This document shows, piece after piece, positions 1,366 through 28,500 of a DNA stretch of 29,704 nucleotides (the stretch's first letter is position 1; each line of letters opens with the position of its first letter). The notes under the pieces were generated by a model that saw only the letters and a list, made by a program, of their open reading frames with translations, was not told the origin of the DNA and did no database searches. Origin of the DNA: a virus. Both the position numbers and the translations under genes were made by a program. The DNA lies in IMG/VR virus record IMGVR_UViG_3300048835_000050, positions 1 through 29,704 of that record; one strand, written 5' to 3'.

Positions 1366-2921
1366 TGATGCTCGACCCCAGCCTGATCGAAGAACTGGAA
1401 ATCCTCGAGGAACTGGACAAACGCCGGTCCCGCGAGGATTTCCTGGCCTTCTATCTGCGCATGACGGGGTTCCAGCCGCCGCGGCACGTCCGGCTGATCT
1501 GCCGCCTGATCCAGTCGATGGAGGAAGACCTGATCGACCGGGCGATGGTCTTTGCACCGCCGCGTCACGCCAAGACCCTTCTGTGCACCAAACTCGCGCC
1601 AGCCTGGATCATGGGGCGGCATCCGTCGGCCAAACTGATGTCCGTGGTGCACACCGCCGATTTCGCCGGGAAGACCGGACGCGCCGTCCGCAACCTCCTG
1701 CGTCATCCCGCTTGGCCCTTCGATGGCGTCTGTCTGGCAGAGGACAGCCAGGCGCGCGACCAGTGGGCAACGCCACAGGGCGGCGAGTACAACGGATTCG
1801 GGGCGACGGCGGGCAACCAGCACGGCAACCCGGCCGAATGGCTGTTCATGGATGACCTCGTGAAGGGTCGCAAGATCGCGATGTCGCCGAACATGCGGCA
1901 GGACATCTGGGAGAACTACACGACAGACCTTGTCTCGCGCCTGGAGGGTCGCGCCAAGCAGCTGATGGTCTTCACGCGCTGGCATCAGGACGATCCTGCA
2001 GGCCGCATTCTGGGCGAGGACTTCGACGGCCGAACTGGCTGGCACAAGGACCGCACCACAGGCGAACCTTGGTATGTTCTCTGCCTGCCTGCCGTGGCCG
2101 AGCGCGATGACGACCCCTTGAACCGCGCCCCCGGTGAGTGGCTTTGGCCGGAACGGTTTGGCGAGGATCGCTTGGGTGGCCGACGCAAGCGCGGCGGATG
2201 GGTCTGGTCCGCACTTTACCAGCAGCGCCCGAGCCCGGAAGAGGGCTTGATGTTCACGAAGGAGCACATCGCGCGCTTCGACTGGCACAAGATCGACCGA
2301 ACACGCCTGCAGTTCTACATCGCCTCCGACTATGCCGTCACGGCGGAAGGCGAGTCCGCTGAAGACCCGGACTACACCGTGCACATGGTCTGGGCGGTTG
2401 ATCCGGAGCACAACATCTACCTGATGGACATCTGGCGCGGCCGCACCTCGTCGGATGCCTGGGTTATGGCCTGGATCAAGCTGGTCCTGAAGTGGAAGCC
2501 CTTGCGCGCCTTCGAGGAGGCCGGGCAGATTCTGAAATCGGTCGGGCCCCTGATCAAGATCATGATGCAGAAGCACAGGGCTTTTACCGACCGGGTGCAG
2601 CTGACATCTACCACGGACAAGGCAACCCGCGCCCAAGCCCTGCTCGGGATGGCCGCCATGGGCATGATGTACCTACCCGAGCACAGCACCTTTCCGGCCC
2701 ACGCAAGGCCGCACCTGGACGCCTTCGAGCGCGAGTTGCTGCAGTTCCCGACGGCCAAGCATGACGACACCGTAGACGCCGCAACGCTCTTCGGGCGCGG
2801 CATTCATCGAGTCATCACGGGCGCGGCTCCGGGCCGGAAATCATCGTCGCCGCACGATGACACCCTCGATGACCTATTTTCCCGCCATGACGAAGAGATG
2901 GACCGGCGGGAGCGGCAATGA
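1362..2921 (+). CDS. terL: Terminase large subunit (packaging ATPase and nuclease)
   Basis: The 519-residue length is normal for the motor that cuts concatemeric DNA and pumps it into the prohead. An N-terminal ATPase domain shows a P-loop-like APPRHAKT at residues 65-72, a Walker B strand WLFMDD at 160-165 and a coupling motif FTRWHQDD at 204-211. The C-terminal RNase H-like nuclease carries acidic clusters at D323 (ASDYA), D356 (YLMDIWRG), E385/E386 and D468-D472 (KHDDTVDA), consistent with metal-binding residues. The P-loop has Ala where many relatives have Gly (PPRHGK). The last 30 residues are charged, ending in a stretch similar to a DDLF motif. It overlaps the portal gene by ATGA. Confidence 0.96.
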   Translation: MMMLDPSLIEELEILEELDKRRSREDFLAFYLRMTGFQPPRHVRLICRLIQSMEEDLIDRAMVFAPPRHAKTLLCTKLAPAWIMGRHPSAKLMSVVHTADFAGKTGRAVRNLLRHPAWPFDGVCLAEDSQARDQWATPQGGEYNGFGATAGNQHGNPAEWLFMDDLVKGRKIAMSPNMRQDIWENYTTDLVSRLEGRAKQLMVFTRWHQDDPAGRILGEDFDGRTGWHKDRTTGEPWYVLCLPAVAERDDDPLNRAPGEWLWPERFGEDRLGGRRKRGGWVWSALYQQRPSPEEGLMFTKEHIARFDWHKIDRTRLQFYIASDYAVTAEGESAEDPDYTVHMVWAVDPEHNIYLMDIWRGRTSSDAWVMAWIKLVLKWKPLRAFEEAGQILKSVGPLIKIMMQKHRAFTDRVQLTSTTDKATRAQALLGMAAMGMMYLPEHSTFPAHARPHLDAFERELLQFPTAKHDDTVDAATLFGRGIHRVITGAAPGRKSSSPHDDTLDDLFSRHDEEMDRRERQ

Positions 2922-5155
2922 AACCTGACATCGTGCCGATGGGTGCCGCACATGGCGAAGGCCAGGATGTGCAGCCCTTCGAGATCACGTCGCCGGAATT
3001 GCCCGACGAACCGCAGTCGGACGAAGAGGCTGCGGCCGGTGGCATCTCCGAAAACGCCAGGTTCTGGTCCGCACAGATCAGCGCGGCCCTGACATATGAA
3101 CGGCGGTTCCGCCAGGAAGCGCAGAACGCTGAGCGCCTGTACTTCGGCGGGGAACAGGATCCCGGCCAGATCGACAGTTCCGAAGCGCCGAAGATGAACA
3201 AGATCACGGACGAAACGGCATTCATCCACGCCAACATCGACGTGCTCAAGCCGATGGTCTTCTCTGAAACTCCGACACCGATCGTTACCCGCCGCTGGCG
3301 GGGGGACGGCAAGTCCGATGAGACCGACCTGATGGCGGCCGAGGCTGGCCAGCGCCTGGCTTCGTGGTTTCTCACGACGACAGACTTCGATTCAGCCATG
3401 GAAGCGGCCCGCGACGATTGGCTGATCGCAGGCAGAGGCACGGCGCGGGCTTTCTACCGCGCCGAGATCGGATCGGTCATCGAGTTTGACCCGATCACAC
3501 AGCAGGCGATCGAGGTTGAGCGCAAGTTGTCCGAGGAGGTGGTCCCGCGCCATATCGAGTGGCGCCGCGTTCTCTTCGCCCCTGGCCATAGCTTCGAGAC
3601 CACGCCATGGCTGGCGTTTGAAACCCCGATGACGCGCGCCCGTGCGTCCAAGCGCTTCCCGGATACGGTCCGGCAGATGTCTTTCACGCAGGCTGGGCTT
3701 GTAGGAAAGTCCACCGCCCCAGGCGACCAAGACCGCGAGCACCAGAACATGGGCGCCCCGGTGGACCAGAGCACCGAGTTGAACAACGACCCTTTCGACG
3801 TGGCTGTCGTCTGGGAAATCTGGGTGAAGGACAGCCGCCGCGTAATCTGGTGGTCTCCTGGCGCGCAACACATCATCCTCGACAAGCAGGATGACCCGCT
3901 CAACCTCGAGAAGTTCTTCCCTTGCCCGAAGCCGTTGCTGGCCACAACGCGCGGCAACACCCTGACGCCGCGCCCAGATGTGTCGTACTACGCCGAGCGC
4001 GCCAAGGAGATCGACATCGCCACGCGAAAGATGCGCGGTCTATTGGATGTTCTGGCAGTCGCTGGCCTCTTTCCCGGTGGCGAATCCGACGTGGTGAAGC
4101 GTCTGATGGATGGCAAGCACCAGCTTATTCCGGTGCAGTCGTGGATTTCGCTCATGGAAAAGGGCGGCACGGCCAATCTGATTCAGTGGCTGCCGCTCGA
4201 GGCCATCATCACCTGCATCAACGCTCTGTCGCTGATGCGCGAACAGGCGAAGCAGGCGATGTTCGAGGCTTCTGGCATCAGCGACATCATGCGGGCGCAG
4301 GGAGACCCGGCAGAAACCGCGACAGCGCAGCAACTGAAGGGCCGGTACGCAGGCATGCGGCTGGCCATCCGGCAACGCCGCATGGCCGTTTTTGCCCGCG
4401 ACCTTCTGCGGATCATGCTCGAGATCGCGCTGGAAATGTTCGACACCGACCGGCTGGCCGAAATCTGCGGCCTGGACATCCCGCTGACCGAGATGGAGCG
4501 CCAGCAGATACTGGCAGAGATCGCCGCGGCACAGGCGCAGTTCCAGCAGGCGATGCAGGTCTACCAGATCGCGGCGCAGCAGGCAGAACAGGCGGCCGCA
4601 TCTGGCGTTCAAGTGCCGCCCTTGCCGCCCCCTCCCGAGGAACCGAAGTTCGACCGCGTGCCGGAAACCTCTTGGGAGTTGGTGCACGAGCGCCTGCGCC
4701 GGGACTTTTCGCGCAAGATCACACTCTCGATCGAGACCGACAGCACCATCCTGGCCGACGAACAGGCGGACAAGGAGATGCGGGTCGAGTTCTTGTCTGC
4801 ATTCTCGACCTTCGTTCAGCAACTCCTGCCGTTGGCCGGGTCCGGCCAGTTCGACATGAAGACCGTCAAGGAACTGCTTCTGTTCGGCGTCCGCGCCTTC
4901 CCGAAGAGCCGGACGCTCGAAGGCATGATTGCGCAACTGCCCGACGAGCCACAGGGCCCGGCGCGCGAAGAAACGCAAGTGCAGGTCGCAAAGATCAGGG
5001 CCGAGACAGACCGCATGCTCAAAGAAATGGACCTTGCGGACAGCGAGGCCGAACGCGCCCACGAAATGCGCATGAAGGGCGTCCAGATGATTGCCGATGC
5101 GGCCACCAAGGCCGCAGAGCCTGATGAGCCACCGCCGCGGCCCGCAGCCGCCTGA
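2918..5155 (+). CDS. Portal protein (head-tail connector ring)
   Basis: A 745-residue protein following the large terminase with a four-base ATGA overlap. Portals form the dodecameric ring through which DNA enters and leaves the capsid. Family features visible are the N-terminal helix pattern around ENARFWSAQISAAL and NAERLYFGG, the segment ANIDVLKPMVFSETPTPIV, and a central region ending in a receptor-like PAETATAQQLKGRYAGMRL stretch, typical of large podoviral portals. Residues about 525-570 are Gln/Ala-rich and helical, resembling the long C-terminal barrel helices of P22-like portals, followed by a Pro-rich turn. The last 90 residues are charged helix. The size favours the podovirus/P22 style over the roughly 500-residue siphoviral type. 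Confidence 0.92.
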   Translation: MKPDIVPMGAAHGEGQDVQPFEITSPELPDEPQSDEEAAAGGISENARFWSAQISAALTYERRFRQEAQNAERLYFGGEQDPGQIDSSEAPKMNKITDETAFIHANIDVLKPMVFSETPTPIVTRRWRGDGKSDETDLMAAEAGQRLASWFLTTTDFDSAMEAARDDWLIAGRGTARAFYRAEIGSVIEFDPITQQAIEVERKLSEEVVPRHIEWRRVLFAPGHSFETTPWLAFETPMTRARASKRFPDTVRQMSFTQAGLVGKSTAPGDQDREHQNMGAPVDQSTELNNDPFDVAVVWEIWVKDSRRVIWWSPGAQHIILDKQDDPLNLEKFFPCPKPLLATTRGNTLTPRPDVSYYAERAKEIDIATRKMRGLLDVLAVAGLFPGGESDVVKRLMDGKHQLIPVQSWISLMEKGGTANLIQWLPLEAIITCINALSLMREQAKQAMFEASGISDIMRAQGDPAETATAQQLKGRYAGMRLAIRQRRMAVFARDLLRIMLEIALEMFDTDRLAEICGLDIPLTEMERQQILAEIAAAQAQFQQAMQVYQIAAQQAEQAAASGVQVPPLPPPPEEPKFDRVPETSWELVHERLRRDFSRKITLSIETDSTILADEQADKEMRVEFLSAFSTFVQQLLPLAGSGQFDMKTVKELLLFGVRAFPKSRTLEGMIAQLPDEPQGPAREETQVQVAKIRAETDRMLKEMDLADSEAERAHEMRMKGVQMIADAATKAAEPDEPPPRPAAA

Positions 5156-5179
5156 CACCAGCAAGCCAAGGAGCTTCGC

Positions 5180-5662
5180 ATGAAGACACCGACCTTTGAT
5201 TTTTCCATTGCGCTGGCGGCGCTGAAACGTGGCAAGCGCGTGGCGCGCGAGGGGTGGAACGGCAAGGGGATGTTCCTGTTCCTCGTCCCCGGCAGCACCT
5301 TCAAGGTGGACCGCGAGCCTTTGCTCTCGATCATGGGCGCAGGCACGCAGGTGCAATACCACGCCCACATCGACATGAAGACGGCGCAGGGCTACGTCGT
5401 GCCCTGGCTGGCATCCCAAGCCGACCTTCTGGCCGACGACTGGACGCTGGTCGAAGCCGTTTCCAGCGCCGTCCTCGCCTGCATCGAGGATTCGACCCGC
5501 ACCTATGTTGAGATCAGCCGGGCCACCCCGACCGAAGGCAGCATCGACCCTGTCAGGGTGATCGAGCAAACGGTTCGCCAAAGGCTTTCGGCGTCAACCC
5601 ACGACCTGCCGCCGAACCTGCGCGAACTCTGCGCCGAAGCCCTCTACAGGGCGGAGGGGTAG
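5180..5662 (+). CDS. tad2: DUF2829 / Tad2-like anti-Thoeris protein with C-terminal extension
   Basis: Residues 5-95 match the DUF2829 pattern closely: FSIALAALKRGKRVAREGWN, GKGMFLFLVPGSTFKVDR, HAHIDMKTAQGYVVPWLASQ and DLLADDWTLVE. Known members (Tad2) bind the cyclic ADP-ribose signal made by Thoeris defence and so block abortive death. All the conserved-looking aromatic and Asn/Gly positions of the REGWNGKGM block are present. Most members are about 90-100 residues; this one has a further 65 residues (about 96-160), largely helical (VRVIEQTVRQRLSAS), that I do not recognise. A good AAGGAG site lies upstream. It stands between portal and scaffold, an unusual place for a defence-blocking gene. 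Family membership is seen; ligand binding is inferred. Confidence 0.85.
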   Translation: MKTPTFDFSIALAALKRGKRVAREGWNGKGMFLFLVPGSTFKVDREPLLSIMGAGTQVQYHAHIDMKTAQGYVVPWLASQADLLADDWTLVEAVSSAVLACIEDSTRTYVEISRATPTEGSIDPVRVIEQTVRQRLSASTHDLPPNLRELCAEALYRAEG

Positions 5663-5665
5663 GCA

Positions 5666-6043
5666 ATGCGTAACCCCGCCCGCCTCATCAACCTCTCCAT
5701 CGGGTTGGTCCTGCTGCTGGCATGCGTCATACTGTTCCTGTCGGCAAAGCGCGCCCACCCGCACAGCGCACCATCCGGCTGGGCCTACGATCCCACATGC
5801 TGCAGCGGCTACGACTGCGCCCCGGCCCCGGTTGGCAGCGTCACAGCCACCCCAGAGGGTTGGCGCGTCCAGATCGAGCCGGGCGATCACCCGATGGTGC
5901 GAATCCTGCCTCTGGACGAGGTGGTGCCATACAGCGACCCGCGCATCCTGCCATCCGGTGACAGCCTGTTTCATGCGTGCGTCAGCGGCGCCCGCGGCGC
6001 AATCCTGTGCCTCTATGTGCCGGAGGGGCAGTACGGATCATGA
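5666..6043 (+). CDS. Membrane-anchored Cys-rich hypothetical protein
   Basis: A 125-residue protein with an N-terminal hydrophobic segment (residues 8-26, INLSIGLVLLLACVILFLS) after two basic residues, which looks like a signal anchor. A Cys in LLLAC is not in a convincing lipobox. The exported part contains a Cys cluster (DPTCCSGYDCAP at about 42-53) and two later Cys (HACVS, ILCLY), suggesting disulfides in the periplasm. I do not recognise a function. A strong GGAGG site overlaps the preceding gene end, and its stop overlaps the next start as ATGA. A membrane-facing role during infection or superinfection exclusion is possible but speculative. Confidence 0.75.
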   Translation: MRNPARLINLSIGLVLLLACVILFLSAKRAHPHSAPSGWAYDPTCCSGYDCAPAPVGSVTATPEGWRVQIEPGDHPMVRILPLDEVVPYSDPRILPSGDSLFHACVSGARGAILCLYVPEGQYGS

Positions 6044-6522
6044 CCCGCCTCGCCATGTCCGATCTGGGCGGGGAGTACGCCCGCATCTTCGGCGCTCAGC
6101 CCAAGGAGCGCGCACCGGGCCGATCACGACGCTGCAAGCACTGCGGCGACTGGCACCGCCTGGACGCCTGGCCACACAACTGCCGCGACGAGCGGCCGGC
6201 ACGCAACCACGATCTGGCATCCCCGCAGTTGGCCCCGAAGTTCGAGGAGTTCATAACCGGGAAGACCGAGACGGCCGAGTACATCGGCGATCGGAAGGCC
6301 AAGCGCGAGTTCATGGATCGACACGATCTGGTGGAATACGACGAGGGCGTGGCGCCGCCGCGCGAGCCGACCCATAAGGAGTGGCTTGAGGACTTTGTAC
6401 AGGACTTCAAGCGCGCCCAGCAGGAAGACCCGTTGAACCGCCCACCGATTGACCGCATCGGCGAAACCGACTTGGGGGAGGCTGAAGAGGTCGATCCAAC
6501 CGACATCGAGGTTTTCAAGTGA
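6040..6522 (+). CDS. Zn-knuckle hypothetical phage protein
   Basis: ATG at 6040 gives a 160-residue product and an ATGA overlap with the upstream stop; a longer in-frame start at 5977 exists but would overlap the previous gene by 67 bases. Residues about 32-48 contain CKHCGDWHRLDAWPHNC, a candidate Cys3/His zinc-binding knuckle. Proteins with this CxxCGxxHxxDAWPHNC pattern are, to my recollection, common beside portal and scaffold genes in alphaproteobacterial podoviruses, but their function is unknown. The remainder is acidic and helical, ending in Glu/Asp-rich residues. Its place just before the scaffold suggests a head-assembly role. Confidence 0.75.
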   Translation: MTRLAMSDLGGEYARIFGAQPKERAPGRSRRCKHCGDWHRLDAWPHNCRDERPARNHDLASPQLAPKFEEFITGKTETAEYIGDRKAKREFMDRHDLVEYDEGVAPPREPTHKEWLEDFVQDFKRAQQEDPLNRPPIDRIGETDLGEAEEVDPTDIEVFK

Positions 6523-6770
6523 CCGACAAGCCCACTGACAAACCAGAGGCGCTTTTGCCCGACGTGTACTCCGACGATACAGAGGTCCGCCGCCTATGGG
6601 AGGCCTTCAACCGACTCGGCGGGCAACTGATGTCCACGATCGACGCTGCCGTGAAAATGCGCACAGCCAGCCCGGCCGCGCAACGCGAGCGGCACAACGC
6701 GCGCCGCCACCTGCAGCAGGCCGGGCAGCACGCCATGAACGCCATCGGTTTCAACCGCAAGAACACCTGA
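6519..6770 (+). CDS. Small helical hypothetical protein
   Basis: An 83-residue protein starting with GTG in a GTGA overlap with the preceding stop. The sequence is predominantly helical (VRRLWEAFNRLGGQLMSTID, then a basic Arg/His/Gln-rich helix QRERHNARRHLQQAGQHAMN). The small size, the amphipathic N-terminal helix and the position directly upstream of the scaffold are reminiscent of small head-assembly accessory proteins. I cannot assign a family. Translation is probably coupled to the Zn-knuckle gene. Confidence 0.65.
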   Translation: MTDKPTDKPEALLPDVYSDDTEVRRLWEAFNRLGGQLMSTIDAAVKMRTASPAAQRERHNARRHLQQAGQHAMNAIGFNRKNT

Positions 6771-6788: not shown

Positions 6789-7964
6789 ATGCCGCCCATC
6801 GAAAACATTGACGACCAAGAGATCGACCGCGACGACCTTGGCGCCGTCTCTGACGACGAAGACGACATCCGCAACATCATCGCCAAGGCGCTTGCCGATC
6901 AGAAGGCGGGTGGTGGCAACGATGAGGACGAGCCGAGCCTTGAAGATCTGCCGGAAACCAAGGAAAACCCGGCTGTTTCGGTCGAGGAAGGTATCTCGCT
7001 GATCGAAAAGGCGGGGCGACCGGAAAAGCCTGCCGCCGCAAAGGCAGGCGAAGCGCAGGCCGATCAAGCGCCTGAAGCGAAGCCCGCCGAGGAAGAGGCG
7101 CGCGCCGCCAATTCGGATGACATGGACGGCCTGTTGGAGGGGCTGGATGCCGACCGGGCGCAAAAGATCAGGGACCGCATTGCCGCAGGCGGCGCGCTTT
7201 CCGGCCTCCTGACCGAGCGGAAGGACCAGTTGTCCGCCATCGCGGAAACGCCGGAGAAGGCCGTCGAGAACCTGCTTCACCTGCACAACTACGCCAACCA
7301 GAACCCCGACCAGTATCTGGCCTGGGCCGCATGGCAGTTGGGCGGCGAGAATGCCGCAGAGACGCTGACGAAGGCCGCAGCACATCTGGGCCTCAAGGTG
7401 GTCAAGGCTGAAGACGAAGACCCCTTCGAGGATGACCGCACCAGGCAGTTGCGGGCCGAGAATGAGGCGCTGCGCATGAAGGCCAACGGCGGCCGTCCGT
7501 TCGACTTTGGCCCGGACGTGCAGCCCGCAACGCCGCCCGATCCCCTGGCGGCATTCAAGGCCGAGAAGGGATCCGACGGAAAGCCCTTGCGGCCCCTTTG
7601 GGACGACTTGGCACCGATCATCGGGCAGCGCGCCTTGCAGCAGCGTACAGCGACCGGTGTACCCGTGACGACCGCCGATCTGGCCAAGATGTACGACGAG
7701 GAAGTCGGGAGGCTGGCGCAGAAGTTCCGATCAACCGCCACTGCGGCAAGCCAGAACCCCCTTGTCGCCGCACAGTCTGCCGCGCCTGTGGCAAACGATA
7801 ACGGCAAGAAACCTGCGGCCACCGCGCTCGACCGAGCAAGGGCGGCCAGCAATCACATAGACGGTGAGGGCCAAGGTGCCGATCGTCACTCCGCGCCGCC
7901 GCCCGACGGCAGCATCGCTGACCTTATCCGCTACAACATGCGGCGGATCGGCGAAGCCAGCTAA
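6789..7964 (+). CDS. Probable capsid scaffolding / assembly protein
   Basis: A 391-residue, strongly acidic protein placed immediately before the major capsid gene, as scaffolds are. The first 130 residues are Asp/Glu/Ala/Pro-rich and probably disordered. A helical middle (RAQKIRDRIAAGGALSGLL, then LHNYANQNPDQYLAWAAWQL at about 160-185) is followed by a charged helix near 210-230 and a Pro-rich tail, and the extreme C-terminus (IADLIRYNMRRIGEAS) is a basic amphipathic helix. P22-type scaffolds bind coat through such a basic C-terminal helix. AAGGAG lies about 10 bases before ATG. No protease domain is visible, so an external scaffold is favoured over a scaffold-protease fusion. Confidence 0.82.
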   Translation: MPPIENIDDQEIDRDDLGAVSDDEDDIRNIIAKALADQKAGGGNDEDEPSLEDLPETKENPAVSVEEGISLIEKAGRPEKPAAAKAGEAQADQAPEAKPAEEEARAANSDDMDGLLEGLDADRAQKIRDRIAAGGALSGLLTERKDQLSAIAETPEKAVENLLHLHNYANQNPDQYLAWAAWQLGGENAAETLTKAAAHLGLKVVKAEDEDPFEDDRTRQLRAENEALRMKANGGRPFDFGPDVQPATPPDPLAAFKAEKGSDGKPLRPLWDDLAPIIGQRALQQRTATGVPVTTADLAKMYDEEVGRLAQKFRSTATAASQNPLVAAQSAAPVANDNGKKPAATALDRARAASNHIDGEGQGADRHSAPPPDGSIADLIRYNMRRIGEAS

Positions 7965-7998: not shown

Positions 7999-8958
7999 AT
8001 GGCAAACCCGAATTGGGGAGAAATCGTGACGGCGACCTTGGCTCACCGTCGCAAGAAGCTGGCTGATGCTGTCAGCCGCAATACCGTGCTGGTGTTCGAG
8101 ATGCGCCGGCGCGGTCGCGCCAAGACCATCGGGGGCGGGCGCACCATCTCGACCCCGATCATGGTCGGGGAAGAGAATGCGAACTTCCAGTGGTATCTGG
8201 GTCGCGAAGCCCTGAACATCGCTGGCCAGGAAGTGCTGACCTCTGCGGAGTTCCCGTGGAAGCAGTACGCCTGCGGCGTCTCGATCTCCGGCCTCGAAAT
8301 GCTGATGAACGACGGCGAAGAGCAGGTCATCAACATGATGGATGCCCGCATCCAGCATGCGGAACGCACCATCGTCAACCAGACCCACAAGTCGGCTCAT
8401 GGCGATGGCACCGGTTCGGGCGGCAAGGAGTTTGGCGGCATTCAGCTGCTGGTGGCCGAGGCTCCGGGCGCTTCCGTTGGCGGCATCCCGTCCGGCACCT
8501 ATGCCTGGTGGGACAACCAGCGCGAAATCCTGGGCGCCGCTCCGACCACGTCGAACATCTACCAGTCGATGCTGGCGCTCTACCTCAAGACCTGCCGCAA
8601 CTCCGACAAGGTCAACATGATCCTGTCGGACAACACCTACTACTCCACCTTCTCGGGCGCGCTGCAGGCTCAGCAGCGGTTCATGGACCGCACGCTGGCA
8701 TCGGCGGGCTTCCAGAACATCATGTTCGAGATGACCCCCGTCGTTCCCGATGGCGGCATGAATGGCTACGCACAGGCCGATGCGATGCGCTTCCTGAACC
8801 TCGATACCATCGAGATCATCATGCACAAGCGCCGCAACAACACCGTTCTCAGCGGACCGCGCCGCCACCTGACCGAAGACTCTGATACCGTCATCATCGC
8901 CGGGATGGGCAACTGGCTCATCAACAACCGGATGCTGAACGGCATTCTGACGCACTGA
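7999..8958 (+). CDS. Major capsid protein
   Basis: A 319-residue protein after the scaffold with a good GAGGAAA site. It reads like a HK97-fold coat of a podoviral/temperate phage family: LAHRRKKLADAVSRNTVLVF at the N-terminus, a basic Gly-rich loop with TIGGGRTIS, and the conserved-looking blocks EFPWKQYACGVSISGLEML, HGDGTGSGGKEFGGIQLLV and DKVNMILSDNTYYSTF. The product ends with IIAGMGNWLINNRMLNGIL, a buried strand typical of the group. There is no N-terminal propeptide or protease signature, so maturation probably follows the scaffold-exit route. The codon bias is the strongest in the window, consistent with high expression. A strong hairpin follows the stop. Confidence 0.93.
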   Translation: MANPNWGEIVTATLAHRRKKLADAVSRNTVLVFEMRRRGRAKTIGGGRTISTPIMVGEENANFQWYLGREALNIAGQEVLTSAEFPWKQYACGVSISGLEMLMNDGEEQVINMMDARIQHAERTIVNQTHKSAHGDGTGSGGKEFGGIQLLVAEAPGASVGGIPSGTYAWWDNQREILGAAPTTSNIYQSMLALYLKTCRNSDKVNMILSDNTYYSTFSGALQAQQRFMDRTLASAGFQNIMFEMTPVVPDGGMNGYAQADAMRFLNLDTIEIIMHKRRNNTVLSGPRRHLTEDSDTVIIAGMGNWLINNRMLNGILTH

Positions 8959-16597: not shown

Positions 16598-19500
16598 ATG
16601 GATGATTACGCCTCGATCATGAAGGCGCTTCGCGCCGCTGACGCCGCAGGTGACACGGAAGCGGCGGCCCGGCTCGCGCAGATGGCAAAAGCTAAACGGT
16701 CATCGGTTCCTGGCAATGCGCCCGCCACTGTCACGCCCCCGCAAGATTCCGCGACTCCGAGGCTGCCGAATGACCCAGCCATGCCCGGCGGGTTCGATCC
16801 GATTCAAGCCGCGATGGCGGCTGCCCCGACGCCGCAGGCTCTGCCCGCAGCTGACTCATACGCCCCGCCGATGGCATTCGGGCCGATGGGTGGAATGGAT
16901 GACACTTGGGCACAGCAGGAGGCGGCGCGGAGAGGGGCGCTTGAGCAAGCCATGGCTCCGGCGGCTGAGTCATCCTTCACGCCGACGGAACCGACCTACA
17001 CGCCGACGGGTGAGGCGATCGTCTCCGAACTTGGCAACGTGCCGGAACGGATTCAGAGAGGTTTCCTCGGTAACACCCTTCAGGCAGCGGAGGGCGCGAT
17101 CAAATCCGCACTGGATCGGATCGGTCGCGCAAAGGGCGTGCCCAAGCAACTGGCGGAAATTCAACGCCGGAAAACCGAACTCTCGACGGTGCAGCAGTCA
17201 GACCCCTATGCCGCGGCAGAGGAGTTTGCCCAACTTGATGAGATGGAAAAGCGACTGACGAGAGCGGTCGACTCTGGCATCCCCGGCATGGTCATCGACA
17301 GTGCGCGCAGCAGCATGGAAAGCGCTCAGCGCGACCGTTTTGCTGCCCAGACCGAGATCGACGCGCTTGAGGCCGCGATGACGCCGGTTCAGCCAGCCCC
17401 TGGGCTTCCAGAGGCCCTGACATCGGGTATTGCATCCTTCGGCGACATGGCGCCTGGCCTTGCCGCAACGCTGGCCACTCGGAACCCTATTCCGATGCTC
17501 GCCTATCTCGGTCTCTATTCGCGCGGATCGACTTACGCCGATAAGCGCGCCGAGGGCTACGACAGCGGAAAAGCCACCACTGCGGCAAACCTGTACGCCT
17601 TGGCAGAGTCGGTTCCGGAAATGCTTCCGCTGGGCGTCATCCTGAAAGAGGGTATTGGCCCGATCACCAAGATTGCGGGCGCTGCCGGAACTGAGGCGAT
17701 TTCCGAAGGCATCACCTCGACCCTGCAGCAACTGATCGACATCGGCGTGCTTGATGAAAGCATGACGTGGGGCCAGGCGATCGAGGAGACCAAGAAAGCC
17801 ATGATGGCGGGCGGCGTCATGGGTGGGTTTATGGGCGGCGGCGGTGTGCTGGCAGACAGTATGCGGGACACCATTGCCAAGCGACGCGCCACCAAGGGCA
17901 CTCCTGCAGACCCGACGGCATATCCAGCCATCACTCAGCAGCCCGCGCCGCCCAGCCCGGCACCCTTGACGCTGACGCCGGAACAACTGGTTCCCCCGGA
18001 TCCTTTGGCCGCAGCCATTGCGCCCGCACCAGAGGCTGCGCCGCCCGTCGTGCCCCAGGCCCCCGATCCCCTTCAGGCCGCCATGGCACCAGCAGCGCCG
18101 CCCACGGAACCGGCCACGTCGCAAGACCCGGCCCCGACCTCGATCACGCTGGAACAGGCTTCTGCCCAGCCCGACCGATACGAAATCATTGAAGAGTCCG
18201 AAGGGGTCGGCGCGGAGTGGCAGGCCACGGGCCGCCAGATTGCAAGAGACAAGGTGACCGGGGCTATGATCCCGATCACCAAACCGATGGCGGGCGCAGC
18301 AGGGGGCGCCGCGCCACAGCCGCAGGCAGGCGTGGAACCGACTGACACGGAGTCGGAACCGGCTGGCAATGAGCCGGAAGCCGCGCCGCCTGCGGCTGAC
18401 CAGACTTCCGAAGTCGAGGCGCCGGCTTCGAGTGCCCCGGCGCGACCGAACCAGCCCGACAACATCGAGTTCATTGATGCCGCCGGAGTGCAGCGCATCG
18501 GCACCGAGCCCGGCGTCATGCAGTACAAGGCCGGTGGTGACGAGCAAGGCGTCACGGATCGCCTGAAGGGCGTGACCGAGTGGCGGCCAGAGCGTGCTGG
18601 CATGTCGATCGTCTATGAGTACGAGGACGGGCGCCGCGTCATTGCAGACGGCCACCAGCGCCTGGGTCTGGCAAAGCGCCTCGCCAGCGAAGGCAAGCCG
18701 ATCCAGATGCCGGTGATGATCCTGCGGCAGCGCGACGGCGTGACGCCGCAGGAGGCGCGCACCACGGCGGCCCTGAAAAACATCGCCGAAGGCTCCGGAA
18801 CGGCGGTGGATGCCGCCAAGGTGCTGCGCGACACAGACCGCAGTCCCGAGCAACTGGGCCTCCCGCCCTCTTCCGCCTTGGTTCGCGATGCAATCGGCAT
18901 GCGCAACCTCTCGCCCGAGGCCTTCGGCATGGTGGTCAACGGCATCTCGAGCGAGCGTGACGGCGGAATCGTCGGGCGCATCGTCCAGGACAAGGCCGCA
19001 CAGAAGGGCATCCTGGCGCTTCTGAACCGCCTCAAGCCGTCGAATGCCTTTCAGGCCGAGTCCATCGTTCGACAGGCGGCAGCCGACACCGTCACAGAGA
19101 CGCAGGACAGCCTTTTTGGGCCGGAAATGGACACCCAGAACCTGTACCTTGAGCGGGCGAAGATTCTGGATGCCGCAACGAAGCGTGTGCGCGACGACCT
19201 GAAGACGTTCAAGACGCTGGTTGACCAGGCTGAGACGGTCTCTGGCGCCGGCAACGTGCTCAACGCGACGGAGAACGAGCGCCGCCTTGCGGCAGATACC
19301 GCTGTGCGGGATTATCTTGGCAAGGAAGCCAACACCAAGGGAGCGATCAGCGATGCCCTCACCGCAGCAGCCCGCGCCTTCAAGTCCGGCGCAAAGCCCA
19401 GCCAAGTCGTCGCCGACTTCCTCGCAGCCGTCCAGCGTGAACTGGGATCGCGCGGCGCAGAACGCCCAAGCGGCGATCAGGGCGGGCAAAGACCTGGACA

Positions 19501-22500
19501 GCAAGGCCAGACCGAATCCGTAGAGCCGGAAGGCATCGACGGCGACGCCGCTGACGGCGATCTGTTCGGCGCGACCCCGCAAACCGGAAAGAGCCCGGAG
19601 CAGATCAAGGCCGAGGCGGAGGCCAACGTCAAAGCCCAGCAGTCCATGATTCGGAAGCCCGGCGGCAACTCCGGTGATGCTGGCCCACTCTTCAACCTGC
19701 AGCCGGACCTTCTGGACACCCCGAGCAAGCCTGACCAAGGCGCGCGTGGTGACGAAGAACTGCGCGCCAAGGTGTCCGAACTGCAGAAGCGCCGCAGTGC
19801 GTTCCTCTACAGATGGCGCAGGCCGTCGGATGCCAGGTTCAACGACAGCCGCAGCAGCGACGACATTGCCGAAGGAAGCCCTGACTTTGTGCAGTTGCTG
19901 AACGATCTCGCCGCAGCCGGATCACAGGCGGCGCGTGAAGATGTCGCGACCGCTTGGGTTCTCGCCATGGGCAAGCGCACCGGCTTTGAGCACCTGGTTG
20001 TGCTGGATTCGGAAGGCGCACCGGTCAGCGTTGTCGTGGGCCAGAAGTCAACCGTCTCGCCGGAAGCTGCCATCTGGCGCGCTGGCGACGCGGGCGAAGT
20101 GGCCTTCACGGTCCATAACCACCCGTCATCCTCCGGCTACAGCGGACCAGACCTCGCTCTTGTGTCGATGTGGCCCGGCCACAGGATGCGGATTGTCGGT
20201 CACGACGGAAAGGCAATGACCGTCAAGGCCAAGCCGGCGATGCAGGCCGCGCCGGAAGCCGACGGCGACCGCGAACTGACCTTTGCCAAACTGAACGAGG
20301 TTCTGGAAGATGTCAGGGTCTACACCGACCGCGCGGTGAACAGGCACCTGCTGGACAAGGGTGAGGCCTCTGGCGATGGCGAGGCGCGTTTCAGGACGGC
20401 TACACGCCCGTTCCTCTCGCTGGTCTTGCATGATCTTGGGTTCGTCACGTTGACCGACCGGGCCAACTGGCTCAAGGTCTTCGAGGAACAAGGCTTCAAC
20501 TACGGGGATTTCTATGGACAGGTTTCAGGCAAGGTCACTGATCGGCTTGGACGGGCCGGATTCGTCATCCCCGAAGGGGGAGATCAAGGCGGAGATCGAC
20601 CGGCTGCAGGCGGTTCCGCTGCCGCACCATCAGGAACTGACCGATCGGATCAAGAGCCTGCAGGCAATGCTGGCCAAGGCCGACCGGTAAGGCCCAGCAC
20701 GGGCAACGACGCGCTGGACGGCGCGCTGGATGACCTTTTCGGGAGCGAGGACGATGTACCAGGCACCGGCACGAGTGTGGAACCAGATCGCGGAGGCGGG
20801 GCCCCTGCGGACGGGATGGGCGGAACAGATGTTCCCACTCCCGGCGGAAGACCTCGAACTGGCACTGGCAAACGAGGAGGTGCGTCTGGCAAAGGCGCTG
20901 CCAAGCGGCCCGGCCGTCGCGGCGTACCTGACGGTGCTGCCGATGCTGTGGGAGGCGCAGGCAATCCGAAACTGGCAGGCGCTGGCGGGGTCAAGCCCGG
21001 CCGTGTTCCCGCTGGAAAGCGTGGACCAGGCGCTGCAGGTGGCGCAGGGGGACTATCTCCTGACGCCGCAGGATCGGGAAGCGCTGCGGGCCCTGCTTCT
21101 GGTGGAACCGGAGTAAGCCCCCGCACGCCTGAACAGCAGGTTGCCGACATCAAGAAGCTGTTCGAGGAGCGGCTGGCTGCCTTCCTGCGCGATCCGCAAC
21201 TGGCGTTCCGCGAGGATGCGTCCGGTCTGGACCCGCGCAAGAAGGAAGCGCTGGAAAGCATCTTCAACGAGGGGATGCAGGGTCTCGACCCGGCGAAGAT
21301 GTCGGATCGTGATCTGTTCAAGGCCATCATCACGCCCTTGATCAAGGCAGGCCTGACCCGCGAACTCGTGGTGAAACTGCAGCCGTACCTTGAAACCTAC
21401 CTCGCCGACGTGCGCGCGGGCAGGATCAATCCGCGCCCTGCGCCGAAGGCAGAGCCTGCGCCGGATGACCGCGCGGCGATGCAGGCCAAGGCCGACAAGA
21501 TCAAGCCCGTGGCGGCTGATGAGGCGAACATCCGCGCCACGCTGCCGCTTCTTCTGCCGGAACAGCAGGATGACGTGCTCAAGGTCGAACGGCGCTTTGC
21601 GAAGCCCGACGGCCACGGGATGATGATCACGAACGGCACCGGGACCGGGAAGACCTTCTCCGGCGGCGGGGTTGTCAAGCGCTTCGTCCAGATGGGCAAA
21701 GGCAACGTGCTGATCCTGGCCCCGTCCGAGGCTGTCATTGCCGGGTGGAAGGGCGCTCTGGCGCAGCTTGGCGTTCCAGTGCATCAACTTGCCGACACGA
21801 AGGATGCGGGGCAGGGGGTGACGATCACCACCTATGCCAACCTGAACGGCAACGATGCCATCGCATCGCGCAAGTTCGACCTGATCGTGCCGGACGAGGC
21901 GCAGAACCTATCGAGCAATGCCCAAGGCGACCCAACCGGCGCCCTGCGTGCTGTCCGCGCCTTGGCTGGACGCCCCGGCGATCTGCGCGGCCGGTCCCGC
22001 ATGATCCATGCGGCAGACTGGGACAAGTTCAAGGCGATGAAGGATGGCGCCGAGAAAACCACCGTCTACACGCGCCTGAAGGCTCGTGAGGATGCCGAGG
22101 TGGCCAAGTGGCTGCAGGAGCCTCGCGGCAAGGTTCTGTTCCTGTCGGCCACACCCTTCGCCTATGACCAGAACATCGACTATGCCGAGGGGTTCCTGTT
22201 CGACTATCCCGAGGATGGCAAGGTCGGCAATTCGCGACAGTCCGGCCGGTCGATCTTCTTCACCCAGAATTTCGGCTATCGCATCCGCTATCACAAGCTG
22301 ACGCGGCCAGAGGCGGCCGTGGATTCGGCGGTGTTCGAGCGGGAGTTTCACGAGAAACTCAAGCGCGACGGTGTTCTGACGGGCCGGTCCCTGCAGATCG
22401 ACGTGGACTATGACCGGAAGTTCGTGGTCACGGCTGACGCGATCGGCACCAAGATCGACGCGATCCTGGATGCGATCTGGCAAAACTCCTCGAACCCAGA

Positions 22501-25500
22501 CAAGGCGCTTGCCGACGGCTACCAGAAGATCAGTCGCGAAGTCCGGCGCAAGTTCTCTTACCTGAAGCGCATGCAGTTGCTTGAAGCCATCAAGGCCAGG
22601 GCTGCGGTGCCGGACATCAAGGCACATCTGGCTCTGGGCCGGAAGGTTGTCGTCTTCCACGACTACAACGTGGGCGGCGGATTCAATCCGTTTGCCGATC
22701 TGGGCATGTATTCCGTTCCCCAGGCTGCAGGCCCGTCGCTGAATGTGGATGCGACAGACGACGCGAATTTCCAGAAAGCCTGGGCGCATCTTCTGGCGCA
22801 GCACCCCGACATCCTGAAGCTGGACTTCTCGCCCTACGGCGCCCCGAACGCGACTCTGCAAGCTGCTTTTGGCAAGCGCGCCCGCATCTTCTCCGGGGTT
22901 GTTCCGCAGAAGCAGCGCCTGGCCGGTCTGACCGAGTTCAACAAGGACGGCAGCGGCGTGGATGTTCTGGTGGTGCAAGCAGAGGCTGGCGGGGCTGGCA
23001 TCTCTATGCACGATGTCACCGGCAAGCATCAGCGCGTGCTGATCAACCTTGGCATGCCGACCAAGCCGACGACGACGCTGCAGGAAGAGGGGCGCATCCT
23101 GCGGGTGGGCACCAGGACGAATGCGGCCTTCCGCTACTACACCATCGGCACGGCTTGGGAGAAAACGGCTTTTGCGCAGCGCATCGCCGAGCGTAGCGGC
23201 GCGGTCGAGAACCTGGCCCTTGGCAATCAGGCCCGCGCCATCACGCAAGCCTTCATCGACGCCTACATGGATGCGGAGCCGCTGGCGCCGTCTGCAGAGG
23301 ACGGAAAGGGTGGCAAGGGCAAGGACCGGGCCGCCGCACTGGCCACGCCTTACGACATCGCCAAGACGCACTATTTCGGGCGGGCGAAGATCAGTGGCAA
23401 GCGGGACCAGCGCGACGGCATCGACTTCTATCCGACCCCGGAACCTTTGGGCTTCATCATGGCCAGCCGGTGGGCGGCGATCAGACCCAACGAGCGCGTG
23501 CTAGAGCCTTCGGCCGGCGATGGGGCGATTGCGCGCTATGTGCCGGACTATGCCGACCTGACCATGGTAGAGCCGTCCAGTGACCTCGCGGCAACGGCTC
23601 AGCTGCGCGCCCCCGGTGCCCGCATCGTCGGAAGCACCTTCGAGAACCTGCACATCTCGAACAAGTACCACGCCATCGTCATGAACCCGCCCTTCGGCTC
23701 TGGCGGCAAGACGGCGATGGAACACCTCTCCAAGGCCGTGATGCGCCACCTGCGGCCCGGCGGTCGGGTGGTGGCTTTGATCCCGACTGGCCCGAGCGCG
23801 GACAAGCGGTTCGATGCCTGGTGGGAAGGCGACGAGGCGAAAGACCTCGACCTGCGCGCGGATGTGACCCTGCCGGCCGTGGCCTTCGAGCGTGCTGGGA
23901 CTTCCGTCATGGCTCGCGTCGTGGTCATCGACAAACTGCACAAGGGCGAGACAGCCGACGGGCAGACTGCCAGGATCAACCTGAGTGGGGCGCAGGACAT
24001 CAAGATCTTCTTCGACCGTCTGGAACAGTACGACGTTCCGGCCCGCCGCGCGCCCAAGATGGATGCGGTGGAGGAGATCGAGGCCGAGGGGCAGGATGCG
24101 ACCACGCCGCCTGCGGCCCCGGTCCAGCGCCCGCCGATCTCCGACAAACCCGGCGACTTCAAACTGGGCCAGACCAAACACGGAAAGACCGGGGAACCTC
24201 TGTTCGTGGCCACGGCTGGCGACCGGGTGGCGCGCGAGTCCTACTTGGCCATGCTCGACGTGGCGAAGTCGCACGGTGGCTGGTACTCCTCCTTCCGCGG
24301 CAATGGTGCCATTCCCGGCTTCCAGTTCAAGACCGAGGCCGCCCGTCAGGCCTTCCTTGACGACATGGCTAAGCCCCAGCAGGGCATGAGCGAGGATCCC
24401 GGCACATTCATCAGCCAGCAGGCATTCTATTCACCCCTCCTGCGCGCTATCGAAGGCGCCAAGCAGACCAAGGCCACACCGAAGGACTGGCGCGCGATCC
24501 TGCCGAAACTGCCGGGCGCCAAGAAAGCGGAACTGGACTGGCTGGGCGCCGATGAGTGGCTTGCAACGCAGGAAACCCAAGGCGTCCGGATGATTGACCG
24601 GGCCAGCCTCGCCGACTTCATCCGCGAACAGCAGATCGGCGTTCAGATCGACGCTCTGGGCGACATTGAGCGACTGCCGCAGGAACCGATCAACTTTGCG
24701 CCCGTTTGGCGGGATCCCGACGAAGACGCAGCCGAGGCCCTGATTGACCAGGACGACGACTGGGACGAGCCGGATTACAGGATCAGCGAGGGCGAAGCGG
24801 TCTACCCCGACGACTGGGACGACGAGGCCGAATACTACATGGACGAGGCGCGCGAAGAACTTGAGCGCGAAGCGGAAGAGGACTGGGACGAGGATGAGAT
24901 GGAAGGTCCGTTCGACCCGTCCTTTGTCGCCGATGATGCCGTTCTTGAACTGGCCAAGCGGATGGCCGAAGAGCGGTTTGAGCCGCGCGAGTATTCCGTC
25001 ACCCTCTACGACCGCAACGGCAAGTGGCCGGAGTACGACGGATATTGGGACAACGACAGCCGCGACTATTATTTCCCTGACCTGTCCGACGATCAGATGG
25101 ACGATGACGACGCCATCCGAGCGGCCAAGAGGAAGTGGGAAGAGGGGCGCCAGAAGGCGATCGAGGCGAAGCTGGCCGAGATGCTGGCCCAAGGCTTGGA
25201 GGCCAGCGGCAAGACGCGCGAGGAGTTTGACGAGGAGGTTGCGCAGGAGGAGGCGGATTATCAGCGCCGCCTCGAGCAGTTCCGCATCGACAACGCGGCA
25301 GCCATCGCGACCAACGAGGGTCGCGGCTTTGTCGGCGCATCCCGGTGGCGCACCTACACGGAAGCAGACGGGGAGAACTACCGGGAAATCCTGATCCGGG
25401 TGCCGAAGCTGCACCAGATCGGGATGAATGCCGCGCGCACCGTCACCGAGCCGTCGCCTGCAAATTCAGACCAGCAGATGACTTACACGAAGCCGGGAAA

Positions 25501-28500
25501 AAAGCCCTTCGTCCAGTCGTCGCACTTCGAGAACGAGAACATCGTGGTGCATGCGCGGGTCAAGGACCGGGTGGATGCCGACGGCAAGCGCGTGCTGTTC
25601 ATCGAGGAAATCCAGTCCGACCTGGCCAGCAAGTGGCGCGAGGTGCGGGAGGATACGCCAGAGGTCGCGGCCAAGCGGGCGGAACTGACGGAGGAAAATG
25701 ACCGCCTCATGCGGGAGGAGGCAAATGCCAGATTCCCGCTGATGCAGATGATGGACAGAAACAACCATCCTTTGGTGCATCAGCACTACACTGTGGTTCG
25801 GGAGCAACTTCGGCACATCATCAATCTGGCACTTGGGCGCGTTGAGGCTGACGAAAACAGCCCGAACCGCAAGTTCGCTGAAATCGTGAAGTCTGACCAA
25901 GACCTGATGTCTTCTGCCAGAACCTACATCGCCGCAGTTGATCGTCGCGCGCAGGTGCTATCCGACCTTCTCGCTCTTGGCACAGAGCGCAAGGCCGATC
26001 CGACGCTGCCGCAGTCCCCTTGGGCCGATCCCGAACAGTACACGCTGATGGTCAAGAGCCTGCTGCGTGAGGCGGCGGTGAAGGGCTACGACAAACTGTC
26101 GTGGACGCCGGGCTGGATGCAGGCGCGGCGCTGGAACAAGGCCGGGCAGAGCGTGGTCGAAGCGGTGGAGTGGGAGACTGGCTCCGAGGGCGGAAAGCGC
26201 ATCACACTGCAAATGATGGGCGGCCGCGGCATCAAGTCCATCAGAACGGATGCGCAGGGCGTCATCCTGTCGGTGGATACGGACATGGGCGCCGAGGGCG
26301 TGGGCCAGCCCCTGACCCGACTTCTGGGTGGCGATGTGGCCAAACAGATCATGGCTGAGGAAGGGGGCAAGGTTTCCGGGCAGAAGATCACCTTCGGCTC
26401 GTCGGGCTACGCTATCGCCTACGACGGCCACATCCGGCGCGCGGTTGAGAAGTTGGTAAAGCCCTACGGGGCCCGACCGGCAGAAGACCGCAGCCTTCCG
26501 GACTTCAAGGGAAGCCGGAAGCAACTCACCGACTACCTCAAGACGCTCAGCGCTGCCGAGGTGATCCGGCGCGCGACCGAGGTGCAGGCGCTGCCGCCAG
26601 CGGGTCTCGACTATGCCCGGCGCGAACTTCGCAACGGCACAGGCGAAGACTGGATCATCAGCAACATGACCTCCTCAATCGAGGACGGGAAACTGCGCGA
26701 GATGGCGCCCGAGATCGACACGACGGATGCGGTCTGGTCTGTCGAAATCACCGACGATCTGCGCAAGGGCGCTGGCCAGGCGCAGCCCTTGTTCCAGCGC
26801 GTGCCGCCCAACGTGGTGCGTGAGAGCCGGGCTGCAATCGAGGAGATCAACCGCCAGATGCCGGCGCTTCGCCGCGAACTGGACCGGCTGAACCTGAAGC
26901 GCGTCAACCTCTACCGCGACACCAAGGCGTGGTATCAGGGCATGTTCATCCTGCACACTGACGGCGCCCTGGAAATCGCCATCGGCGCCAGCCTTGACCC
27001 GATGAAGACCCTTCATCACGAAGCCATCCACGCGCTGCGCACCATGAACCTCTTCACGCCAGAGGAGTGGCAGGCGCTGGAACTGGCGGCCGCAAAGGGC
27101 TGGATCAAGAAACACCAGATCGACACGCGCTATGCCGATCTGTCGCCAGAACAGCAGATCGAGGAGGCAATCGCGGAGGAATTCTCCGAAGCCCTGGCTG
27201 CGCGCAAGTCGCCACAGGGATCCTTGCTCGTCCATGCCTTCAACAAGATCGCCCGCTTCCTGCGCGCGATCCGCAACGTCTTCAACGGCGCTGGGTTCCA
27301 GACGGCCGAGGATGTCTTCGGGCGTGTGCTTTCGGGCGAAATCGGGGCGAGAGCCTATCATCAAGCTAGAAGCAAGGATGCTATGCGGGCTCAGTCCGCA
27401 CCGGTTGCAACTCTTTCTGGGAATGAACTTGGTGTTCAGGAGAACGTGAAGGATTTGGGGCGGGCCGCCGAAAACTGGTATGCCGAAAACCTTCTTGGTC
27501 AAAGCGTCATCAACGCTGCAACCGGAATGGCTATCGAGTTCAACCGGAGGGGGGCAAAGAAAGTCGGCGGGCGCAAGGGCGACACGATTTACCGTATCGT
27601 GCCGGCGCTCCGTGAAATTCTGGCGAGCGGACAGCTTGTAGATACCATGCCTGACCGCCTTGGTCGCCCTGAAGTCAGGGCAGTTCACAAGATCGGCGCA
27701 GCCGTGAATCTGGCTGGCGAGATCAAGCATGTTATCGCAACCGTGCGCGAAATGGCTGACGGAACGTACCACTATGATCTGTCGCTGGATCGCGAGGCCG
27801 GGGGTTTTGCATCCCCCACGGTCCAGGATGACTCCCGCACTTCGGCATTGGATGGCGGCCTCGCAGATTTGAACCTACAGGATTCACAGCCAGGATTCAA
27901 GGAAGAGCCGACACGCTTCCAGCGCCCGCGCGCCATCCGCCCCCTGGGACCGCAGGCCAGAGCCCATCGCGCAACCGCCATGGGCGGCGCTGTCTTCGTG
28001 CCCGACCGGCGCGTGTGGGAGGAACTGCGCCGGGCTGGCCTGCCGATCTGGCAGCGCTTGGCCAATAGCCGCGGCGCAGCCCGCGACGCCATCGACCGGG
28101 CGCGCGTCCTGATTCAGGACAGGTTCCTGCCGGTTCGTCGCGCGCAACAGGCGATCGAGGAGGCGAGCGGCGTCCGTCTTCCGGATGCGCAAAACGCCTA
28201 TGCGGCGGAGACCACATATTCCGGCAAGGTCGGCCGCCACCTCTTCGAGATTGACGAGCAATTCACGAAGCCGGTGATCGACCTGATCTCGGACACCAAG
28301 GGCGCGCTTTCCGTCGATGATGTCGGAGCCTGGCTCTACGCGCGCCATGCCATCGAGCGGAACGCGCGGATTGCACAGATCAACCCGCAGATGCCGGACG
28401 GCGGCTCCGGCATGACGAACGCGGAAGCGCGGTCCATCCTGGCGCAGGCCGCAGCTGGACCGCACGCACATCGCCTGCAGACCATCGGCGATCTGGTGGA

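Follow-up and report, generated by a model that had tools for sequence, protein, structure and literature searches.

A Tad2-family protein with a C-terminal three-helix extension in a variable cargo slot of a viral head operon

Introduction

Tad2 proteins are one of the known types of sponge with which phages counter TIR-based immunity. They are homotetramers with inter-subunit pockets, and a longer mid-domain region has been linked to cyclic-dinucleotide binding, HgmTad2 and SptTad2 both binding cGG (reviewed in PMC12043709). SPO1 Tad2, which has a short middle region, does not bind 3'3'-cGAMP (PMC11722364), and ModTad2 has been described as inhibiting type II Thoeris (PMC13299392). According to the titles of the structure entries, ModTad2 was crystallised with His-ADPR, and HgmTad2 and SptTad2 with cGG. 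We analysed a Tad2-like gene in a virus record of 29.7 kb; the whole stretch of 29,704 nucleotides is referred to below as the window. A preliminary description made from the letters of the window had pointed to a DUF2829/Tad2 domain, a helical extension of no recognisable family and a position in the head operon that it held to be unusual.

Results

An ordinary Tad2 core

The Tad2-like gene (5180..5662, + strand) is an open reading frame of 160 aa with an ATG start, and direct reading places a ribosome-binding site, AAGGAG (5168..5173, + strand), 6 nt 5' of the ATG. Residues 7-91 of the product match Pfam PF11195 (Tad2-like) with an E-value of 3e-25 and 89 bits, against a curated cutoff of 25 bits, and residues 5-92 match solved Tad2 proteins with an E-value of 3e-20, the best relatives by sequence being ModTad2, HgmTad2/AcrIIA7, SptTad2 and SPO1 Tad2. 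PADLOC gave no match for the protein. A single-chain AlphaFold2 model built from 69 sequences gave a core pLDDT of mostly 93-97, and when this model was compared with solved structures by VIA-align, Tad2 proteins were the top matches, with ModTad2 (8v3e) first (Z 11.5, rmsd 1.4 over 73 residues) and all other solved Tad2 proteins at Z 10-11. The window protein retains all 13 columns in which the 69 sequences do not vary (R, GWNG.GM, W, SQ, D, DW). The span from GWNG to DW is 62 in the window protein and 60 in ModTad2 and SPO1 Tad2, compared to 78 in HgmTad2 and 72 in SptTad2, and the long mid-domain insertion typical of cyclic-dinucleotide-binding Tad2 (HgmTad2, SptTad2) is absent from the window core. 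Judged by sequence and predicted fold, the product is a true Tad2-family protein with an ordinary core, as the preliminary description had supposed for its N-terminal part. We assign the sponge core to residues 7-92 (5198..5455, + strand) from the Pfam match, the solved relatives, the model and its structure matches, and the 13 invariant residues.

A C-terminal three-helix extension kept in one other lineage

The remainder of the protein, residues 93-160 (5456..5659, + strand), carries a coding signal in the same frame, weaker over the final third of these residues, and helices are predicted at residues 96-114, 124-142 and 145-158. Folded alone, the tail was modelled with a pLDDT of 89.5 and a pTM of 0.77, from only two aligned sequences; in the full-length model its pLDDT was 63-75 and its position with respect to the core was uncertain, so that a clash of the modelled tail with the pocket or the tetramer is possible. 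Residues 93-160 had no match in Pfam, PHROG or the phage collection, a viral scan with the tail alignment gave no relative, and no credible tail relative was detected in 385 Alphaproteobacteria genomes. The three weak matches seen in those genomes were partial, with E-values of about 0.007, and one contained a stop; we regard them as chance. In the fold searches, the best Foldseek E-value was 0.69 and the best VIA-align Z was 6.8, which is the chance range for small helical bundles.

A relative of the tail was found in one other lineage only, in the Tad2-like protein of the viral contig L121 (L120 is the same region). The window protein and the L121 protein are 38% identical in a full-length alignment, and their tails are about 34% identical, with a score that was reached by none of 5000 shuffles (0/5000). 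A tail profile matched only the window and L120/L121 among the Tad2 loci collected. Tails of at least 40 residues occur in only two others among 113 Tad2 loci, neither demonstrably related, and nearly all relatives terminate a few residues past the core. The tails of L060 and L092 were rejected as homologues, the score having been reached by 68/5000 and 4344/5000 shuffles, respectively; likewise, tblastn matches past residue 92 (e.g. L040, L068, H7, H82) cross stop codons or gene ends and were discarded as read-through extension. Our searches found no free-standing source gene for the tail. Additions at the N terminus are frequent in the family, with a YGTK/DGYxSWSP module in many members and a PGDYG-like module in L011 and L142. 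Extensions are therefore common in this family and nearly always N-terminal, the C-terminal kind being found in one lineage besides the window, and a Tad2 with a C-terminal helical domain was an architecture not found in the literature searched. The extension named in the preliminary description thus proved real and of no recognisable family, given in-frame coding, three predicted helices and the lack of a Pfam, PHROG or phage match, and it is a small new variation on an ordinary Tad2 core.

The Tad2-like gene lies in a variable slot behind the portal gene

The upstream edge of the slot is the portal gene (2918..5155, + strand; phrog_12082, E 1.5e-188), whose stop is 24 nt from the start of the Tad2-like gene. 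Downstream follow a small accessory gene (5666..6043, + strand) of no family, a gene for a zinc-ribbon-like head-module protein (6040..6522, + strand), which forms the downstream edge of the slot by an order conserved in related lineages and has no family match, a further small gene (6519..6770), a putative scaffold gene (6789..7964), named from its position alone and without a family match, and the gene for the major capsid protein (7999..8958, + strand; phrog_9953, E 4.8e-102). The terminase, portal and major capsid genes are on the same strand as the Tad2-like gene, with the terminase large subunit upstream. The preliminary description had placed the gene between portal and scaffold: its location in the head operon and next to the portal gene holds, whereas three small genes (5666-6043, 6040-6522, 6519-6770) separate it from the scaffold gene. 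Because the first 10 kb of the window contain no promoter-like site, and the sole + strand terminator-like site there is within the portal gene, the Tad2-like gene and the head genes probably share a transcript.

Two other features of the window were observed. The translation of the small gene at 5666-6043 has an N-terminal hydrophobic segment, is cysteine-rich and carries a conserved CC..DC motif, and its homologue was seen only in the slot of L131. Positions 16598-29704 (+ strand) form a single open frame of at least 4369 codons that is still open where the record ends; parts of it match helicase (ResIII, Helicase_C), methyltransferase (weakly) and LPD3, a pattern known from large polyvalent phage proteins, and the long minus-strand open reading frames listed in this region look like an antisense shadow of the + frame.

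Relatives of the locus were gathered by portal and capsid similarity and grouped at 95% capsid identity, giving 18 lineages in which the portal, the zinc-ribbon-like protein, the scaffold-position gene and the capsid occur in one common order. The interval from portal to zinc-ribbon gene varies between 90 and 1867 bp across them. It holds a Tad2-like gene in 5 lineages (the window, the Ruegeria phage 45A6 group, L121, L131 and L142), PGDYG-like genes in 9 and Gp49_66 genes in 2, and this portal-downstream slot is a variable cargo site. The relatives thus share the locus in 5/18 lineages and the extension in one besides the window. Outside this head-module family, Tad2-like genes adjoin the portal in L018, L045, L082, L085 and L113, the terminase in L073, L089 and L104, and the capsid in L110; in Pseudomonas phage phiAH14a and Vibrio phage 1.127.O they lie near capsid genes, and elsewhere they are also found among replication genes. 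A position in the head operon is recurrent for Tad2-like genes, although about 9 of some 75 loci may not exceed what random placement would yield. With 5 of 18 lineages using the same slot and nine further loci beside portal, terminase or capsid genes, the claim that the placement is unusual was overstated.

A highly diverged Tad2-like gene was also observed between the terminase and portal genes of L157 (3650-3946), a distant relative. A swap of the core domain was considered, since in a tree the window core did not group with those of the other slot proteins; a single clade was not rejected by the AU test, however (p 0.73 and 0.88), and we therefore make no claim of a swap.

A second family tied to nucleotide signals shares the slot

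Gp49_66 is, to our knowledge, a widespread phage family without an assigned function. Proteins of this family (PF13876) are encoded in the slot of L121 (6562-6870) and, fused to an RyR domain, in that of L118 (12210-12884). A Gp49_66 profile of five sequences, some of them from other positions and one a weak member, matched the solved cGAMP sponge Acb4 (9e4w, anti-CBASS) with an E-value of 4.6e-9; with the L121 sequence by itself, the E-value against Acb4 was no better than 0.11. These matches suggest that Gp49_66 and Acb4 are related families. Since Tad2-like genes and Gp49_66 genes with their Acb4-matching profile are both found there, the slot appears to carry two families tied to nucleotide-signal sequestration.

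PGDYG-like proteins (MPxFRKKPVxIEA...PGDWIIKG) are encoded at L116 5159-5434, L121 7410-7739, L011 7626-8255 and L142 5286-5990. Like Tad2-like genes they occur in the slot, and in L011 and L142 the two are joined in one protein; PHROG 419 covers both a PGDYG-like and a Gp49_66-like part. The PGDYG-like, Gp49_66-like and Tad2 domains seem to be small phage domains shuffled among one another. Searches of the PGDYG-like genes against the PDB returned only rows of repeat proteins, with no stretch passing by itself.

Discussion

From the sequence comparisons and models, we consider that this protein from the variable cargo slot is probably a sponge of the Tad2 type, taking up a Thoeris signal derived from ADP-ribose, and that its tail would be an accessory part that stabilises or docks. 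The gene would be an accessory counter-defence gene immediately 3' of the portal gene. The first 92 residues of its product would most likely assemble as a tetramer that sequesters the Thoeris signal, His-ADPR or a gcADPR, with the result that the Thoeris effector would stay off. By analogy with solved relatives, an ADP-ribose-derived signal would be the likeliest ligand, because the protein has a short middle region, like ModTad2 and SPO1 Tad2, and not the longer one of HgmTad2 and SptTad2. That the Tad2 fold has also been deposited as AcrIIA7 counts against a sponge reading. Residues 93-160 would form an autonomous three-helix accessory domain that most likely stabilises the assembly or docks to a partner; this role is favoured since the core is complete without the tail, and a second binding function is a further option.

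Expression with the head operon would be late. The major head protein of the phage is what activates a Thoeris system of staphylococci (PMC12578639), and in a host with a capsid-sensing Thoeris, a sponge from the same operon would appear alongside its trigger. By this analogy late expression could be adequate and early expression would not be needed, since sponge and capsid trigger would come from one operon. The arrangement may go further, the slot being a bay for nucleotide-signal sponges (Tad2-like and Acb4-like Gp49_66) co-expressed with a Thoeris-triggering capsid protein, and the tail tethering the sponge to the capsid or sensing complex, where it would absorb signal at its source or ride in the virion; we regard this extended version as a long shot.

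Other readings differ in what the core binds or in what the tail is for. A Tad2-fold sponge could have as its main ligand another nucleotide signal, e.g. a cyclic dinucleotide of CBASS; the tail would then supplement the usual second site or take its place. The family members HgmTad2 and SptTad2 bind cGG (PMC12043709), and the slot of related phages also has Acb4-like Gp49_66 genes; however, the window core is without the longer mid-domain region linked to dinucleotide binding (PMC12043709), an absence that argues mildly against such a ligand, and SPO1 Tad2, which is also short, does not bind 3'3'-cGAMP (PMC11722364), leaving this reading unlikely. We likewise think it improbable that the tail has no role of its own and is left over from a fusion or from neutral read-through. 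Nearly all relatives do stop a few residues after the core, and the coding signal drops in the last third of the tail, but the tail is predicted to fold confidently as a domain, no free-standing source gene was found, and L121 keeps the same fusion at only about 34% tail identity, which indicates that the fusion has persisted.

The neighbourhood raises a further reading, since a gene among head genes and 24 nt 3' of the portal gene could encode a head-morphogenesis or virion protein that reuses the Tad2 fold in capsid assembly. Of the 18 lineages that share the head module, 13 have no Tad2-like gene, and in one of these the slot is only 90 bp long, which indicates that the gene is dispensable for assembly. 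The core invariants are also those of the sponge family, and the Tad2 family is found among replication genes as well, making a head protein very improbable indeed.

The locus is of interest mainly for its tail, a helical domain that two lineages retain at the C terminus, and for the broader idea that late operons may carry sponges as cargo. Two unrelated sponge-type families occupying one variable slot of a late head operon suggest that phages may co-express sponges with the Thoeris capsid trigger, not only early. If confirmed, the link between Gp49_66 and Acb4 would offer a likely function for many hypothetical proteins.

Among known proteins, ModTad2 from a Myroides odoratus prophage (PDB 9eib with His-ADPR, 8v3e apo) is the best match in both sequence (42% identity) and structure over residues 4-92 and has a similarly short middle region, but at 88-89 aa, compared to 160 aa for the window protein, it has no C-terminal extension. 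SPO1 Tad2 (Gp34.65; PDB 8sme, 8smf, 8smg, 8wje) shares the fold (Z 11), the short middle region and the invariant motif residues; it is about 90 aa long without an extension, and its sequence similarity to the window protein is lower. HgmTad2/AcrIIA7 and SptTad2 (PDB 8kbi-8kbm, 8wjd) have family and fold in common with the window protein and, unlike it, have a longer middle region, bind cGG and carry no helical tail. The Tad2-like protein of Ruegeria phage 45A6 (KT820175.1, ANH49101.1) is encoded within a related head module, with the portal gene immediately 5' of it, but its extension is N-terminal, of the YGTK/DGYxSWSP type, and it is without the C-terminal tail. The closest counterpart in architecture is the L121 protein (6877-7413), in which the core has diverged and is longer in the middle and a linker separates core from tail, whereas the slot and the architecture are the same and the C-terminal tail is homologous.
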